Part shown: one piece after another, positions 2,717 through 38,211 of the stretch
Numbering within the stretch: position 1 is the stretch's first letter
How the letters are laid out: every line of letters begins with the position of its first letter
From: a virus
Length of the DNA stretch: 40,215 nucleotides
IMG/VR virus record: IMGVR_UViG_3300047564_001471
Location: 1-40,215 of that record
Reading direction: 5' to 3' (one strand)
Made by a program: the position numbers and the translations under genes
The notes under the pieces: model-generated
What the model saw: only the letters and a program-made list of their open reading frames with translations
Databases searched by the model: none
Told to the model about the DNA's origin: nothing

Positions 2717-2814
2717 GTCGCACCTCATCATTGGTGGAAGTCATCACTAAAAGACAACAGCAGGACGGTGATGAATCGTCTTTTCCCCCGCTAAAGGTAG
2801 CTGTTACCTAAATT
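2717..2814 (-). other. Non-coding gap between rusA remnant and HNH-AP2 gene
   Basis: About 100 bases with no coding potential on the operon strand, in an operon whose genes otherwise overlap. It includes AGCTACC, a GCGGGGG run and a TCATCACC segment. It may be the 5' flank of an inserted element. Group I intron core elements could not be made out by eye. Confidence 0.4.
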
Positions 2815-4456: not shown

Positions 4457-5099
4457 TTGACATCCTCTTAAGTTTTTCTGCTGCTGTCAGTGGTGGAGCA
4501 GCGATCTCATCTTCCCAGCGTTTTCCGTTCAGCCAAGTACTGGGGTGTGGGATGTACTGGACATCTTTGTCTTTCCAGATGGTCCTGACTTGGATACTCA
4601 GAGAGTGGAGGATCTTGTCCAACAATGGTTGGTCAACCCGGAGCTTTGCGAAGACCCGTTTGGCAAACTCCTTGTTGGTCTTCTTGGGGTAGGCTTTCCA
4701 GAACGTATCAAATAAGGGATTACCCTGTCCAACAATAGGTTCTATTCTGGTTCTTAATTCAGGTTCTGTAGCCAGATTCTGGCTGGGGGGGTAGCCCGAT
4801 TCTGACGGGGGGGTAGCCCGATTCTGGCTACTGGGGAATTTCAATAAATATTGATTGGGTCTTTGGATGTTGTCCTTGAATACATTGACCGTTTCAACGT
4901 ACCCAGCTTCCTCCAAAGCATTGATGTGATTCTTGAGCGTAGACAGGCCCATAGAACACTCTTCAGCAAGCAGTTTTTGTGATGGATTGCACTGTCTAGT
5001 GTGGTCGTTGCAATGGTTTGCAAGCATCAACAAGACAAGTTTTTGCCCAGTATTGGCTGTCTTGGCCTCAATAGCCATAGCCATGAATCTAATGCCCAT
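4443..5099 (-). CDS. Lambda O-like replication initiator (winged-helix N-terminus)
   Basis: A 218-residue protein. Residues about 10-85 form a winged helix (LVLLMLANHC...CNPSQKLLAEECSMGLSTLKNHINALEEAGYVE). A Pro/Ser-rich linker at about 90-115 is encoded by the iteron-like repeats. The C-terminal domain has FDTFWKAYPKK...YIPHPSTWLNGKRWEDE, the signature of phage O-type and related initiators. It should bind the origin repeats and recruit the helicase encoded two genes downstream. The in-gene origin in the linker is the same arrangement as in lambda. Confidence 0.85.
   Translation of the reverse strand: MGIRFMAMAIEAKTANTGQKLVLLMLANHCNDHTRQCNPSQKLLAEECSMGLSTLKNHINALEEAGYVETVNVFKDNIQRPNQYLLKFPSSQNRATPPSESGYPPSQNLATEPELRTRIEPIVGQGNPLFDTFWKAYPKKTNKEFAKRVFAKLRVDQPLLDKILHSLSIQVRTIWKDKDVQYIPHPSTWLNGKRWEDEIAAPPLTAAEKLKRMSNARP
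4775..4836. repeat. Iteron-like direct repeats inside the initiator gene (candidate replication origin)
   Basis: Two near-identical units, 4775-4797 and 4798-4819, share GATTCTG followed by a G7 run and TAGCCC. A partial third unit starts at 4820 (GATTCTGGCTA). A perfect dyad AGCCAGA-T-TCTGGCT covers 4770-4784, and an A/T-rich stretch follows at about 4837-4856. The repeats lie in the coding region of the linker between the DNA-binding and C-terminal domains of the O-like protein, the position of the lambda origin. Their role as an origin is inferred from position and repeat form. Confidence 0.6.
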
Positions 5100-7522: not shown

Positions 7523-7957
7523 ATGAACACATATTTTGCTGATCTTCGGGCTAAAAGAAAAGCGCTTGGTCTTTGTCTTGCTTGCGGAAAACATCCAGCG
7601 CCTTGCGAATCATGCAGGGCTTGGAACCGTGAGTACATGAGAAAAAAAAGAGCTGGTCTGCCGCCTGAAGAAAAGCAAAAGGTGTGGGTGACAAAGCGTC
7701 ACTATTACTTAATGCGCAGGTTTGGAATTTCTGAAGAGCAATACAACAAAATGCTTGAGCAGCAAAACTACTCTTGCGCAATATGTAAATCAAAAGAATC
7801 TGGGGACAAACGAACAAACCGACTTGCTGTTGATCATTGTCACACTACAAACCATGTTAGGGGTTTGTTGTGCTCGGCATGCAACAAAGGAATTGGGCTT
7901 ATGCGTGACTCCCCTGACATTCTTCAATCCGCCATCAAATACCTACAAAATAACTGA
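7523..7957 (+). CDS. Recombination endonuclease VII-family nuclease
   Basis: A 144-residue protein with an N-terminal zinc knuckle (C18, C21, C28, C31). The nuclease core has CAICK (C85, C88), LAVDHCHTTNHVRGLLC (D104, H105) and CSACNKGIG (C117, C120, N121), the endonuclease VII layout. Members cut branched DNA (T4 gp49) or act as mobile nucleases. The short N-terminal knuckle and terminal LRDSPDIL-type helix are common in the free-standing phage forms. Confidence 0.88.
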   Translation: MNTYFADLRAKRKALGLCLACGKHPAPCESCRAWNREYMRKKRAGLPPEEKQKVWVTKRHYYLMRRFGISEEQYNKMLEQQNYSCAICKSKESGDKRTNRLAVDHCHTTNHVRGLLCSACNKGIGLMRDSPDILQSAIKYLQNN

Positions 7958-29113: not shown

Positions 29114-31555
29114 TTAAATCCTTTGCACCTTGCCATCAACGGGTGTTGGACGGCGATATTGGAAAGAGTTGGCCCGACTGACCACCGTTTCCCCGTGACC
29201 CTGAATCAACGCCAAGATTCCAATACGGGCAGAGTCAATGTGATCGTCCGGATCACTGAACCTGCCAGCGTCATCAATAGCGTAGTTCCTTGCCTCATCG
29301 AGAAAATCGACACAAGACTCATTGATCATCAATGTGCCACGTTCCATTCCCATCCGCATTATATTGATTCCATAGGACTTATGGTTGGTTACCTTGCCCT
29401 GGTCGTTTACTGGGTTCAATATAGCACCCGGAATACAGTTTAGGCCATAGTTGTCCTCAAACACTTCCCGAACCGACTGTTCAGTCAAGGTATACCGACC
29501 AGCTTGGGTCGCATCATGGGGCAAAGCAATCGGGATACCCTTGGATTCTCTGTCCATCAAATAATGGACGTACTCATCCGGGGTTTCGCCTTGGGGAATC
29601 TTAATCTGACGGTGCAAATAGATGATTTCTTCCACAGGATTGCGGAAAAAGAAGCTAATCACGGTTGGGTCATTGCGGATACCCAAGTCAAACGAGATCA
29701 AACGCTCAAGTTTTGGATCATTCTTGAGGTCAATGTCAGTTGCTTTGTATGTCGGCCAGTTAAGGATTGGGAAAACCACGCCTTTGCCGACCAACGGAAT
29801 ACCTTTGATACGGCAGTCTCGCTCCCAAGGCATAAAGTCACGGGATAACTGATCCCGCTCTTCTTGGCTGAAGAACTTCTCACCCCATTCGTTTTCAAAC
29901 GGGATGTCGTCCCAAGTCACTCGCACATGGGTGTAGCCGTCAATCTTGTCCCAGAACTTACGCACGAGTCCGGACATACCTTTGAGTGGCGTAAACGAAC
30001 ACATAACCTGCCCATTACGCTGTGCTGTACGGACAACAAGTTCCGAGAACACTTCATCTGGGGGTTGTTCGTCCAAGACAACAAGGTCAAGCTCAAAACC
30101 CTGCAAGTGACGCACTTGTTGGGTGTAGTTTGAGAAATACAGCTTTGATTTACCACCGGAACTATGCCAAATCTCAATAGACAGGACGTTAGCCCCATCC
30201 GTTCTGTATGACTTCTCGTCAATACACTCCAAAGGGATAGAGCCTGTTCCTAATTTGTACGATTGCTTGATGTCATCACATCCAAGCAGCTTGCTTTGCA
30301 GTGTCTTGGCTACCTGTTCCCAGGATTCACCAGCACACATGGCAATGATGGGTTTGTCCCACTTCTTGCCTTTCCAATTTTTGGGATATCTGCCTGTCAG
30401 GTGGTAAGCAGTCTCGTAGGTCGAGGCGATTGTATTGTGGTGAACAATGCCAGCACTGATGTAGTTTTCAGTGCCAGGAACAGTAAAGTCATAGCAATCA
30501 TGGACGCCAATCGGTTGATACGCTATAATCTGGTTAGCATCAACACTAAAGGGGTTTACCAATGAAGGCTTTTCAATTTGATCTTGACCAGTTGCGTGAA
30601 TTGATTGAAGTTCAGCAATTGACGCAAGAACAAGTCTCTGCAATTCTTGGATGTAGTCGCACAACTTTGCAGAGGGCATGTTATCGCTATGAGTTAAATA
30701 CTCAGCGAACAGGTCCACGATCTGGCGACAGGCATCCAGATTGGAAAGGTGGTCGAACTTTGGTTGGTGGGTATTGGTATATCTATCAACCAGACCATCC
30801 GCATCGCACAAAGAAAAATACTGTCGCAGAGCATCGACTTGTGATGGAAGAACATTTAGGCCGGTATTTATTGCGAACAGAAGTTGTTCATCATAAGAAC
30901 GGAGATTCTCAAGACAATCGATTAGAAAACCTAGAAGTGTTTTCCACGAACGCTCTTCATCTGAAGCATGAACTCTCCGGGCGCACTCCAAACTGGTCGC
31001 CCCAAGGTTTGGAAGCGATGGCAGCAGGTTCTCGCAAAAGACGTATTCAGCTCCAGACTGCAAAACGCGATGCCCAAGGGCGGCTTCTATCCAGCGACCA
31101 TTCGACATCCACAGACGAACGCAAGGCTCCGCAGGTTTCATGATTGGCTGAATGGCAGTTTTAATTACTGCCTTCTCACCATCCCAAGACCAAACCTTAA
31201 ACGGCTTGTTTTGTCTGTACATCTCGCCGTAGGTAATCTTGCTTCCATCGGGCAGGTCTAAAACTGTTGCTGCTGTACAACATTTTCCTGCACGGTTGGC
31301 TGCAATCATCCCTCTACGGGCAAAGTGAGCGCCTGTCTCAAAGAACTCAGTCTGGTACTTGAAAGGTCTGAACCACTTCAAGGTATTGAACTGCATGTCT
31401 TTGGCGACAGTATCTCTTGCCGCTTTCATCTTGCGTAGTTGGTCGGCATCAAGATGCTTGATAGCAGCCTTGCCACCAGCCAACTTCACAAGGTGTTTGA
31501 GTGCCCGATCCTTGTAGATGGGCAGTATGTAGTCACTGGCTTCACTTTTTGCCAT
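29114..31555 (-). CDS. terL: Large terminase subunit precursor, interrupted by an intein
   Basis: An 813-residue precursor (530 after intein removal). The N-extein ends AANRAGK and the C-extein starts TIASTYE, giving the Walker A AANRAGKT only after splicing. Walker B is LVVLDEQ with D495 and E496, and the nuclease domain has ISFDLGIRNDP (D623) and a late DDHIDSAR. It packages DNA through the portal and cuts concatemers. The ATG at 31555 is chosen over an in-frame GTG three codons upstream. Unspliced protein cannot bind ATP normally, so packaging should depend on intein splicing. Confidence 0.93.
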   Translation of the reverse strand: MAKSEASDYILPIYKDRALKHLVKLAGGKAAIKHLDADQLRKMKAARDTVAKDMQFNTLKWFRPFKYQTEFFETGAHFARRGMIAANRAGKCCTAATVLDLPDGSKITYGEMYRQNKPFKVWSWDGEKAVIKTAIQPIMKPAEPCVRLWMSNGRWIEAALGHRVLQSGAEYVFCENLLPSLPNLGATSLECARRVHASDEERSWKTLLGFLIDCLENLRSYDEQLLFAINTGLNVLPSQVDALRQYFSLCDADGLVDRYTNTHQPKFDHLSNLDACRQIVDLFAEYLTHSDNMPSAKLCDYIQELQRLVLASIAELQSIHATGQDQIEKPSLVNPFSVDANQIIAYQPIGVHDCYDFTVPGTENYISAGIVHHNTIASTYETAYHLTGRYPKNWKGKKWDKPIIAMCAGESWEQVAKTLQSKLLGCDDIKQSYKLGTGSIPLECIDEKSYRTDGANVLSIEIWHSSGGKSKLYFSNYTQQVRHLQGFELDLVVLDEQPPDEVFSELVVRTAQRNGQVMCSFTPLKGMSGLVRKFWDKIDGYTHVRVTWDDIPFENEWGEKFFSQEERDQLSRDFMPWERDCRIKGIPLVGKGVVFPILNWPTYKATDIDLKNDPKLERLISFDLGIRNDPTVISFFFRNPVEEIIYLHRQIKIPQGETPDEYVHYLMDRESKGIPIALPHDATQAGRYTLTEQSVREVFEDNYGLNCIPGAILNPVNDQGKVTNHKSYGINIMRMGMERGTLMINESCVDFLDEARNYAIDDAGRFSDPDDHIDSARIGILALIQGHGETVVSRANSFQYRRPTPVDGKVQRI
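30502..30530 (+). promoter_or_regulatory. Sigma70-type promoter for the antisense endonuclease gene
   Basis: TGGACG at 30502-30507, 17 bases, then a perfect TATAAT at 30525-30530, pointing into the HNH gene that starts at 30562. The predicted transcript start near 30537 leaves a leader of about 25 bases with AAAGGGG before the ATG. On the other strand these bases encode intein residues near the C-terminal splicing block. Confidence 0.7.
30562..31143 (+). CDS. HNH homing endonuclease encoded antisense within the terL intein
   Basis: A 193-residue protein. A helix-turn-helix-like N-terminus (LTQEQVSAILGCSRTTLQRAC, in parts) is followed by HPDWKGG and an HNH_3-type core: AEHRLVMEEHLG, VVHHKNGDSQDN (H110, H111, N113), RLENLEVFS and HLKHE (H133, H136). 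Ribosome binding site AAAGGGG. It lies wholly inside the intein coding region on the opposite strand, 194 codons including the stop. The usual antisense shadow frames here put the third codon base opposite the first base of the real codon; this gene is in a different phase (first bases opposite), which supports genuine coding. Confidence 0.92.
   Translation: MKAFQFDLDQLRELIEVQQLTQEQVSAILGCSRTTLQRACYRYELNTQRTGPRSGDRHPDWKGGRTLVGGYWYIYQPDHPHRTKKNTVAEHRLVMEEHLGRYLLRTEVVHHKNGDSQDNRLENLEVFSTNALHLKHELSGRTPNWSPQGLEAMAAGSRKRRIQLQTAKRDAQGRLLSSDHSTSTDERKAPQVS
31154..31175 (+). terminator. Terminator-like hairpin just after the antisense endonuclease gene
   Basis: GGCAGT, loop TTTAATT, ACTGCC, then TTCTC, beginning 10 bases after the endonuclease stop. 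The U-tract is weak. Together with the promoter at 30502-30530 it would limit the plus-strand transcript to the endonuclease cassette inside the intein. Confidence 0.4.
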
Positions 31556-31730
31556 ATGCGTCACGCATGGTCAGCAAGAGGTCAGCAGCAGAAGCAAGGT
31601 AGTAAACATCCTTTGGCTCCAAGACACGATCTCCTTGAAGATCCTTCTGTAGCCACTCTAATGTTTTTCTTGCACAAGCCTCTGCTTGAGCTGACAACTT
31701 TTGACGGAAGATGGTTGAATGATCTTCCAT
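31542..31730 (-). CDS. 62-residue protein directly upstream of terL
   Basis: The start at 31730 overlaps the upstream stop (TGATG). MEDHSTIFRQKLSAQAEACARKTLEWLQKDL is helical and charged, and the stop lies inside the start of terL (14-base overlap). The position fits a small terminase-associated protein; the usual terS candidate is further upstream (32931-33422). Confidence 0.65.
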   Translation of the reverse strand: MEDHSTIFRQKLSAQAEACARKTLEWLQKDLQGDRVLEPKDVYYLASAADLLLTMRDAYGKK

Positions 31731-36867: not shown

Positions 36868-37230
36868 TCACTTCAGGAATTTGAGCTTGTAGATCGTACT
36901 GTCAATCAAATCTGCAATCTCGTCAACAGCATTTTGGATCTCTGAGTCCTGCGGTAGCAATTCCCGTTCGTCTTTGACAAAGTCTTTGAGGGATCGCAAC
37001 TCGTCCAGGGCATCTTCCATTGGTGGGTAGTAATCAACAGGGTAGTCAATCATCTCTTCTGTGATACCCATAATGCCTTCAGCCACCACATCAACCAAGT
37101 CAGGCAGCTTTGTGTAAAAGTCACCCAAAGCCATGTGTTCAGAGTAACTGGTGCTTTTGAGATGCAACAGATGCGTATTGGTTGCCGCATGGAGTAGCGT
37201 CAGTATGAATTGACCAACATCTTTGTTCAT
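36868..37230 (-). CDS. 120-residue protein, ferritin-like fold style
   Basis: N-terminal helix HAATNTHLLHLKSTSYSEHMALGDFYTKLPDLVDVVAEGIMG looks like the HxxxH/D-E pattern of small Dps/ferritin-like phage proteins; the rest is helical and acidic (DALDELRSLKDFVKDEREL). ATGA overlap with the YbcO-like gene. Last gene before the terminator. Metal binding is a guess. Confidence 0.6.
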   Translation of the reverse strand: MNKDVGQFILTLLHAATNTHLLHLKSTSYSEHMALGDFYTKLPDLVDVVAEGIMGITEEMIDYPVDYYPPMEDALDELRSLKDFVKDERELLPQDSEIQNAVDEIADLIDSTIYKLKFLK

Positions 37231-37523
37231 ATCAAGCCCTTGTCTTTCAAAATCTGTCGAGATTTAACCATTGCCATTGTAAAAGCTTCTTCAACATTGT
37301 CCAAGGACAGGTGTTCTGGGCGTTTTCTTTGTCTGTCGTACACCTGATGACAGGCATAACACCCATAAGCACCATGCTGATCGTCTGCCTTCTTACCCAT
37401 CCCCTTGCCATGCTCGTATCGATTACTGTGACACCAGACAACAGTCTCGGGGTTGTAGTTACACACCCCAGGAAGGTTTATTGTGCAATCCTCACCTCTA
37501 GCACTCTGTCTAATCTTGGTCAT
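37227..37523 (-). CDS. YbcO-like (DUF1364) putative nuclease
   Basis: 98 residues from the ATG at 37523 (family length about 96). MTKIRQSARGEDCTINLPGVCNYNPETVVWCHSN matches the YbcO/DUF1364 start; YGCYACHQVYD carries the second C-x2-CH metal site. Together C13, C21, H32 and C55, C58, H59 would coordinate zinc in an HNH-like nuclease. Prophage relatives accompany RusA and recombination genes, as here. The start has only a weak ribosome binding site; a longer frame begins at 37625. Confidence 0.85.
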   Translation of the reverse strand: MTKIRQSARGEDCTINLPGVCNYNPETVVWCHSNRYEHGKGMGKKADDQHGAYGCYACHQVYDRQRKRPEHLSLDNVEEAFTMAMVKSRQILKDKGLI

Positions 37524-37710
37524 AAGTGATCTTTGGTGAATGTTTGAGCAAAGCACAGCCTTACCGTAAGCAAATACAGTTCGCTCTGTGCCTGTGATCT
37601 TTGGAGCCATGTCCTCGCACTGCACTATCCCAGACTTATTTCAACCACCCGGCTCTAGGAATTCGCCCACCGTCCCTGCTCTGGCTTGCTCGTGTAACAG
37701 GGTTATTTAA

Positions 37711-37746
37711 GACTCCACCACTGACGTACCGCATGGTGTCCGAGTC
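37711..37746. ncRNA. Stable hairpin adjacent to the three-way junction
   Basis: GACTC-CACCA (37711-37720) pairs with TGGTG-TCC-GAGTC (37734-37746) with a 3-base bulge, and the loop can pair TG-CG with CG-CA around TAC. A third hairpin CCCTG/CAGGG lies upstream at 37674-37702. Hairpins in series before a junction are the style of structured phage RNAs. Strand not determined by this hairpin. Confidence 0.5.
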
Positions 37747-37762
37747 GTTGTGAGAAACAAAA

Positions 37763-37853
37763 AAGCCGTTTACTACTGCCCTCTGGTGGTAGTCTTTCTT
37801 AAATTTATTCCAACGGAAACTTAAGGAAGACAGAGAGCATGAGTAAACGGCTT
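37763..37853 (+). ncRNA. Three-way-junction RNA element
   Basis: P1: AAGCCGTTTACT (37763-37774) and AGTAAACGGCTT (37842-37853), 12 perfect pairs. P2: ACTGCC (37775-37780), loop CTCT, GGTGGT (37785-37790), two G-U. P3: GTCTTTCTTAA (37792-37802) with TTAAGGAAGAC (37821-37831), one U-G, capped by TTCC/GGAA. The wobble pairs work only if the plus strand is the RNA. However, T6 follows P1 on the minus strand (GGCTTTTTT), so a leftward terminator-like use remains possible. No known family recognised. Confidence 0.5.
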
Positions 37854-37890
37854 CAATCTTGTTACCTACCACAGCAACAGGTGCAGTATA

Positions 37891-38211
37891 TCAAAGATTT
37901 TTAAGTTCCTGGCGTTTGCTGTATTCCTGTGTCTTCCAGGTATCAAAGCGCATTTGAGCAGCAGCTAACATGAACTTCAGGTTCTCTTCCTGTTCAGTTG
38001 CTGCTTGCAGACCCTTTAGCTGGGCTTCGTAGTCAGGGTGAGCATATGCAAACGCCTCTTTGTTGCCAAGCGTTCCCTCTTCCTTGTTCATCAAACGGCT
38101 CTTGACCGTTCTCAGGTAGTTCTCAATAAACACCCGCTCTGCCTTTGCTTTCGCAAATTTAGGGGCGTTTTCCATGATGTATGCCACGCATTTGTTTGGG
38201 TCAATGTCCAT
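37891..38211 (-). CDS. 106-residue conserved phage protein
   Basis: MDIDPNKCVAYIMENAPKFAKAKAERVFIENYLRTVKSRLM then AHPDYEAQLKGLQAATEQEENLKFMLAAAQMRFDTWKTQEYSKRQE. All helical; this pattern recurs in phage early operons of podo- and siphoviruses. TAATG overlap with upstream gene. Function unknown. Confidence 0.75.
   Translation of the reverse strand: MDIDPNKCVAYIMENAPKFAKAKAERVFIENYLRTVKSRLMNKEEGTLGNKEAFAYAHPDYEAQLKGLQAATEQEENLKFMLAAAQMRFDTWKTQEYSKRQELKNL

Follow-up and report, generated by a model that had tools for sequence, protein, structure and literature searches.

Promoter-proximal structured RNAs that head phage genes include the put RNA of HK022, an antiterminator acting in cis against terminators that lie downstream of it, and the lambda late leader (the Q-dependent 6S region), the latter with a T-run hairpin early in the transcript. 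The leader immunity RNA of phage P4 combines early termination with two matching short repeats, seqA and seqC. GOLLD, whose function is unknown, is a large structured RNA carried by phages, with a 3' region that is conserved and a 5' region that is less so (PMC12286853). Here, we analysed a gap between two genes of a viral record (IMG/VR IMGVR_UViG_3300047564_001471; the window is the whole stretch of 40,215 nucleotides), which, judging from sequence comparisons, is one copy of an uncatalogued modular structured RNA gene. Like GOLLD, its family is a large phage structured RNA with a conserved 3' part and a less conserved 5' part, but it is about 360 rather than 800 nt long, shares 5' modules with unrelated 3' modules, has a duplicated octamer, and is usually away from tRNA genes, whose proximity is a frequent trait of GOLLD and ROOL (none in the window, and in 1 of the 30 loci scanned, L130). 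With ROOL it shares occurrence in phages and prophages and several pseudoknots. Unlike both, it has no Rfam match.

The family is promoter-proximal, as are put and the lambda late leader, and has the early T-run hairpin of the latter, but it is much larger, its conserved domain follows the first terminator-like hairpin, and antitermination is only putative. With the P4 leader, the family shares two matching short repeats and a predicted early termination, but the third segment to which the repeats of P4 are complementary was not found in our family. HEARO/omega RNAs (IscB, IsrB) resemble the element as structured RNAs directly before an HNH gene, with ATGA in the window; they differ in that the element has no Rfam match and no adjoining IscB or IsrB, the downstream gene being YbcO, and many members precede other genes. 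Identity with HEARO, GOLLD, ROOL, tRNA, or tmRNA was rejected given the lack of Rfam or ARAGORN matches. A likeness to the RNase P signature, noticed by eye, was dropped because that many shared short words are expected by chance. The only match to int-alpA RNA in the window (Rfam RF02996, 38 bits) lies elsewhere (2741-2807, minus strand), just upstream of an HNH/AP2-domain gene; no integrase was found among the proteins scanned.

Bounds and strand of the element

The initial annotation had placed a structured region at 37674-37853, inside 367 non-coding bases. The non-coding gap is indeed there, between a 106-aa gene and a YbcO gene, and it is structured; the element is larger than was proposed, spanning about 37526-37890. 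The main features are as follows.

37891-38211, minus strand: upstream 106-aa gene, no assigned function
37526-37890, minus strand: whole RNA element, made up of the -10 box of the promoter, the 5' module, the T-run, and the 3' module, absent from the relatives L004 and L005; covariance model R1 matches 37603-37743
37885-37890, minus strand: -10-like hexamer TATACT, without a good -35 in the window copy
37861-37878, minus strand: hairpin P0 of the 5' module, whose loop (37866-37872, GTGGTAG) forms a pseudoknot
37763-37853, minus strand: long hairpin P1, with an outer stem (37842-37853 with 37763-37774) and a middle stem (37833-37839 with 37777-37783)
37786-37792, minus strand: pseudoknot partner CTACCAC, on the 3' side of P1
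37759-37764, minus strand: terminator-like T6 run after P1
37711-37740, minus strand: helix H1 of the 3' module, double changes in 7 of 7 pairs
37674-37702, minus strand: helix H2 of the 3' module (CCCTG/CAGGG), 100% of cells paired, double changes in 4 of 5 pairs
37628-37672, minus strand: pseudoknot, 37670-37672 with 37650-37652 (99.6% of cells paired), crossed by 37654-37660 with 37628-37634 (99.4%), both with double changes
37594-37601, minus strand: octamer X, internal copy (AAGATCAC)
37546-37591, minus strand: terminal pseudoknot, 37586-37591 with 37553-37558 and 37580-37586 with 37546-37552, compensatory changes in L125 and L130
37526-37533, minus strand: octamer X, terminal copy, 2 nt before the ATG
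37227-37523, minus strand: YbcO-family HNH gene (Pfam PF07102), start corrected to the ATG at 37521-37523

The limits of the element are the stop codon of the 106-aa gene (37891) on one side and the YbcO start codon, ATG (37523), on the other. In the close relatives L004 and L005, the same two genes are joined as CCATGA, the element is cleanly absent, and YbcO begins at the same ATG. The window's YbcO ORF (37227-37625) appears to have been called 34 codons too early, its initial 34 codons being RNA and not protein. In another relative, L003, the same RNA follows a cytosine methyltransferase gene. We rejected the ORF at 37636-37872, a conserved version of which would have argued against an RNA, because it matches no protein family and the indels among homologues disrupt the frame.

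The gap folds clearly better than shuffled sequence on the minus (z = -3.1) and on the plus strand (z = -3.0), so folding alone cannot choose between them. The covarying 3' helices, read in the operon (minus) sense, contain 29 G-U against 3 A-C cells, and the promoter and the T-run are on the minus strand; the RNA strand is thus that of the operon. This contradicts the antisense, plus-strand RNA that had been proposed on the basis of three wobble pairs, and favours the fallback offered with it, a structured intercistronic element read leftward. Three of the proposed structures were confirmed: the hairpin at 37674-37702 (CCCTG/CAGGG), that with a bulge at 37711-37740, and the stem of 12 pairs that 37763-37774 forms with 37842-37853. 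The proposed three-way junction, whose stems would have had 12, 6, and 11 pairs, was rejected: its arm ACTACTGCCCTCTGGTGGTAGT is missing in homologues, and the CTACCAC strand of this arm pairs instead with the upstream hairpin loop at 37866-37872. The comparison with relatives that had been suggested as a check revealed massive compensatory change, which, with the lack of Rfam matches, supports a structured RNA of unknown class; its description as regulatory is putative.

Structure and divergence of the two modules

The 3' module of the window (module I) has about 240 nt and two pseudoknots. Across 93 distinct sequences, 97.3% of the cells are paired and 17 of the 22 pairs are double-changed (477 cells), a result matched by none of 500 shuffles and approached by no slid control; covariation had also been counted earlier on 22 sequences. 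The helix 37670-37672:37650-37652, although outside the alignment model, is still paired in 99.6% of the cells, with CG, GC, AU, UA, and GU types. In the terminal pseudoknot, L130 shows the compensatory change of GAGCGAA:TTTGCTC to GGGCGAA:TTTGCCC (a hand reading, with no counted control). Between the window and L003, the 3' module is 98.2% identical and the flanking genes 86.7-87.5%.

The 5' module consists, in order, of P0, the long P1 hairpin, and the T6 run. The outer stem of P1 shows one compensatory change, T-A to A-T, between the window and L003. As for the pseudoknot between the P0 loop and P1, in all 72 distinct modules of the window's type the loop is perfectly complementary to a stretch of 7 or more bases within its own P1, in 17 different sequence pairs, whereas swapping the P1 partners gave perfect pairing in 2 of 642 trials. 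Judging from the sequences, this pairing could occur either within one molecule or between two. A T-run is found at the same place in 101 of 113 members, and with the GC-rich stem before it, present in all folded types, it forms a predicted intrinsic terminator. Most members have a sigma70-like promoter just upstream of the 5' module (mean score 9.44 vs 7.87 in shuffled sequences); the promoter scan of the window did not list that of the window copy, which has only a fair -10. Other members have very different 5' modules (types B to E, e.g., the H-type pseudoknot of L116), which nearly always end in a stem and a T-run.

Module I carries a direct repeat, which we named octamer X. It occurs after CTCC(G) and again, 60-80 nt downstream, after CACC(A) at the 3' boundary. 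When the two copies are anchored on CC, their identity is 0.68-0.92 at positions 1-8 and drops to 0.18-0.42 from position 9 (n = 113). The repeat is mostly 7-9 nt long between a member's own copies, and mostly 5-7 nt when copies are swapped. There are about 50 different octamers, and both copies change together. On average, they resemble Shine-Dalgarno (SD) sequences (about -3.2 vs -0.65 kcal/mol); the window's own octamer pairs poorly with the anti-SD (-0.6) and is not SD-like. No complement of X was found in the 5' module, the 3' module, or 400 bases on either side beyond what swapped controls gave, and we thus rejected the ideas that X pairs within the RNA or seeds a pairing with these flanks. 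Both copies therefore probably respond to a single external partner.

These results bear on a P4-like system of immunity or specificity, in which a short, terminated 5' module would act in trans upon further copies of its own transcript as these are being made. Despite its rapid divergence (window and L003: 75% identity plus 20 gap columns, as against 98.2% for the 3' module), the 5' module keeps its pairing; whole 5' modules are exchanged (L116 vs L101), and the paired repeats recall seqA and seqC of P4. Yet neither the RNA nor the 400 bases on either side contain a complement of the octamers, and there is no integrase among the window proteins scanned; we regard this explanation as highly improbable.

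A family of mosaic RNA genes in phages

A 21-base probe identified further phages with the RNA, and two more probes reached much more divergent members. The gapped core probe gave at least 120 matches, of which at least one (L142) is a chance match, and two pattern scans gave at least 120 each. These large, pseudoknotted RNAs form a common class, carried by well over a hundred phages, mostly from freshwater. When 100 loci and 19 whole records were scanned with a covariance model of the 3' core (R1), every one of them contained exactly one copy, and the four element-free relatives contained none; these counts reflect copy number and not prevalence, since the probes with which many of the loci had been selected target that core as well. 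No Rfam model matched the window element or 31 other loci at gathering scores, and, with E-values up to 5, the window element matched only chance-level miRNA models, on the long hairpin. The family is uncatalogued as judged against Rfam; the survey of structured RNAs in viruses reportedly made by Fremin et al. in 2023 lies outside this comparison. Searches with blastn in a collection of annotated phages gave no convincing match to module I and none to the module III described below, plasmids gave no match to the RNA, and a single 19-mer match among bacterial species genomes (L107) was judged to be due to chance.

Probing with 5' modules alone revealed that those of the window's family also precede at least two unrelated 3' modules, which makes these mosaic RNA genes. 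Modules II (GCCGTACTCCACACGATAGCAG...) and III (GGGGACTGTAAGGATTGCAGACC...) follow many 5' modules, and there are intermediate variants. They were read by eye, and 'unrelated' means that they share neither visible sequence nor a visible helix with module I; neither has an Rfam match at gathering scores. The sequence of module II hardly varies; at its end, a hairpin is followed by CACC, in most cases by TTGGAGA, which is SD-like, and by a start codon, an ATG following CACC within about 14 nt in 46 of 47 cases. Module III, found after a type B 5' module in L260, L263, L264, and L272, has roughly 400 nt, is nearly invariant, and is apparently non-coding. L116 and L101 have the same flanks and 3' module and differ in the 5' module, showing that the halves of the RNA are exchanged. 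It is possible, though less likely than not, that we are dealing with a combinatorial class in which interchangeable 5' modules, each with a promoter, a pseudoknotted hairpin, and a T-run, would provide a switchable specificity. At least three unrelated large 3' modules joined to them, two of which finish close to the start of a gene with a hairpin followed by CACC and an SD-like sequence, would engage a conserved host machine (polymerase or ribosome).

Some loci are more complex. In L355 and L358, a further domain of some 200 nt, which a hairpin of its own closes (TTGATGATGGTG/CACCATCATCAA in L355), separates the 5' module from a sequence resembling module II; L355 also has a tRNA cluster. 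Module II was found once in the annotated phage collection, in MW202484.1 (L396), where a member with a type A 5' module (4500-4875) is annotated as the hypothetical protein UOF77725.1. Along with the start of the window's YbcO ORF, this indicates that annotation can miscall the RNA as protein. The capsid protein of this phage is 86.5% identical to that of the window.

The genes next to the RNA encode replication-initiator-like, terminase, portal, capsid, HNH, and methyltransferase proteins. The nearest downstream gene is on the strand of the RNA in 103 of 119 loci, and the other 16 calls, on the opposite strand, appear upon inspection to be spurious antisense ORFs. A selfish mobile element that passes from phage to phage, with a structure serving its own transfer and with the octamers as its limit, would account for the many genome positions, the clean absence from L004 and L005, where the same two genes adjoin, and the octamer exactly at the 3' boundary. 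Such an element is unlikely in the light of other observations: no associated protein is common to all members, there is never more than one copy per record, and the near-identical L108, L114, and L115 are in similar, not unrelated, contexts.

Possible modes of action

Our best guess from the sequence data is that the RNA controls adjoining phage genes. We lean tentatively, with less than even confidence, towards a two-module RNA acting mainly in cis, made of a promoter, an attenuator, and a structured leader that ends at the ribosome-binding site of the next gene. RNA polymerase would start at the element's own sigma70-type promoter, and the 5' module would fold first, P0 being locked to P1 by the pseudoknot. 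We infer that P1 and the T-run would end or pause part of the transcripts, the polymerases reading through to make the 3' module, a compact double-pseudoknot domain. The latter would end in an SD-like octamer at the start of the next gene, and the identical octamer 60-80 nt upstream could be a stand-by or decoy ribosome-binding site, presumably to the benefit of the phage.

We favour this cis leader, with attenuation and ribosome loading, because of the co-directional placement, the promoter, the T-run, and the link between the 3' end and gene starts. In module I, the start codon of an ORF of at least 40 codons lies 7-17 nt from the start of X in 36 of 97 members, compared with 49 of 355 control sites. 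On the other hand, 61 of these 97 members have no long ORF right after X, the downstream genes (replication, terminase, portal, capsid, HNH) are oddly varied for a dedicated regulator, the promoter of the window copy lacks a good -35, and its X pairs poorly with the anti-SD. No alternative antiterminator fold was found.

The main rival is nearly as likely as the cis leader. It posits an autonomous, trans-acting ornate RNA similar to GOLLD and ROOL, a free molecule whose 5' domain varies and whose 3' domain is conserved. This molecule might form RNA-protein particles or RNA-only ones, like the oligomeric cages of GOLLD and ROOL, and perhaps touch ribosomes. It would account for the single copy per record at varied genome positions, the RNA's own promoter, and the much higher conservation of the 3' module than of the flanking genes (98.2% vs 87%). 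It fits less well with the ends of the RNA: module II stops at a start codon in 46 of 47 cases, module I does so more often than expected by chance, and no terminator-like end is visible after the 3' module. Since the structure is proven, the boundary exact, the octamer copies co-changing, and the modules naturally swapped between relatives, the function of the RNA is testable by module swaps.

In the same window, the large terminase ORF (29114-31564, minus strand) has an apparent intein: about 250 residues are inserted behind RAGKC, the last of them being ...AGIVHHN, with a weak match to the Pfam intein splicing domain (19.8 bits, below the cut-off). Small HNH-type or endonuclease VII-type genes are scattered at 290-784, 2237-2731, 7523-7957, and 37227-37523.
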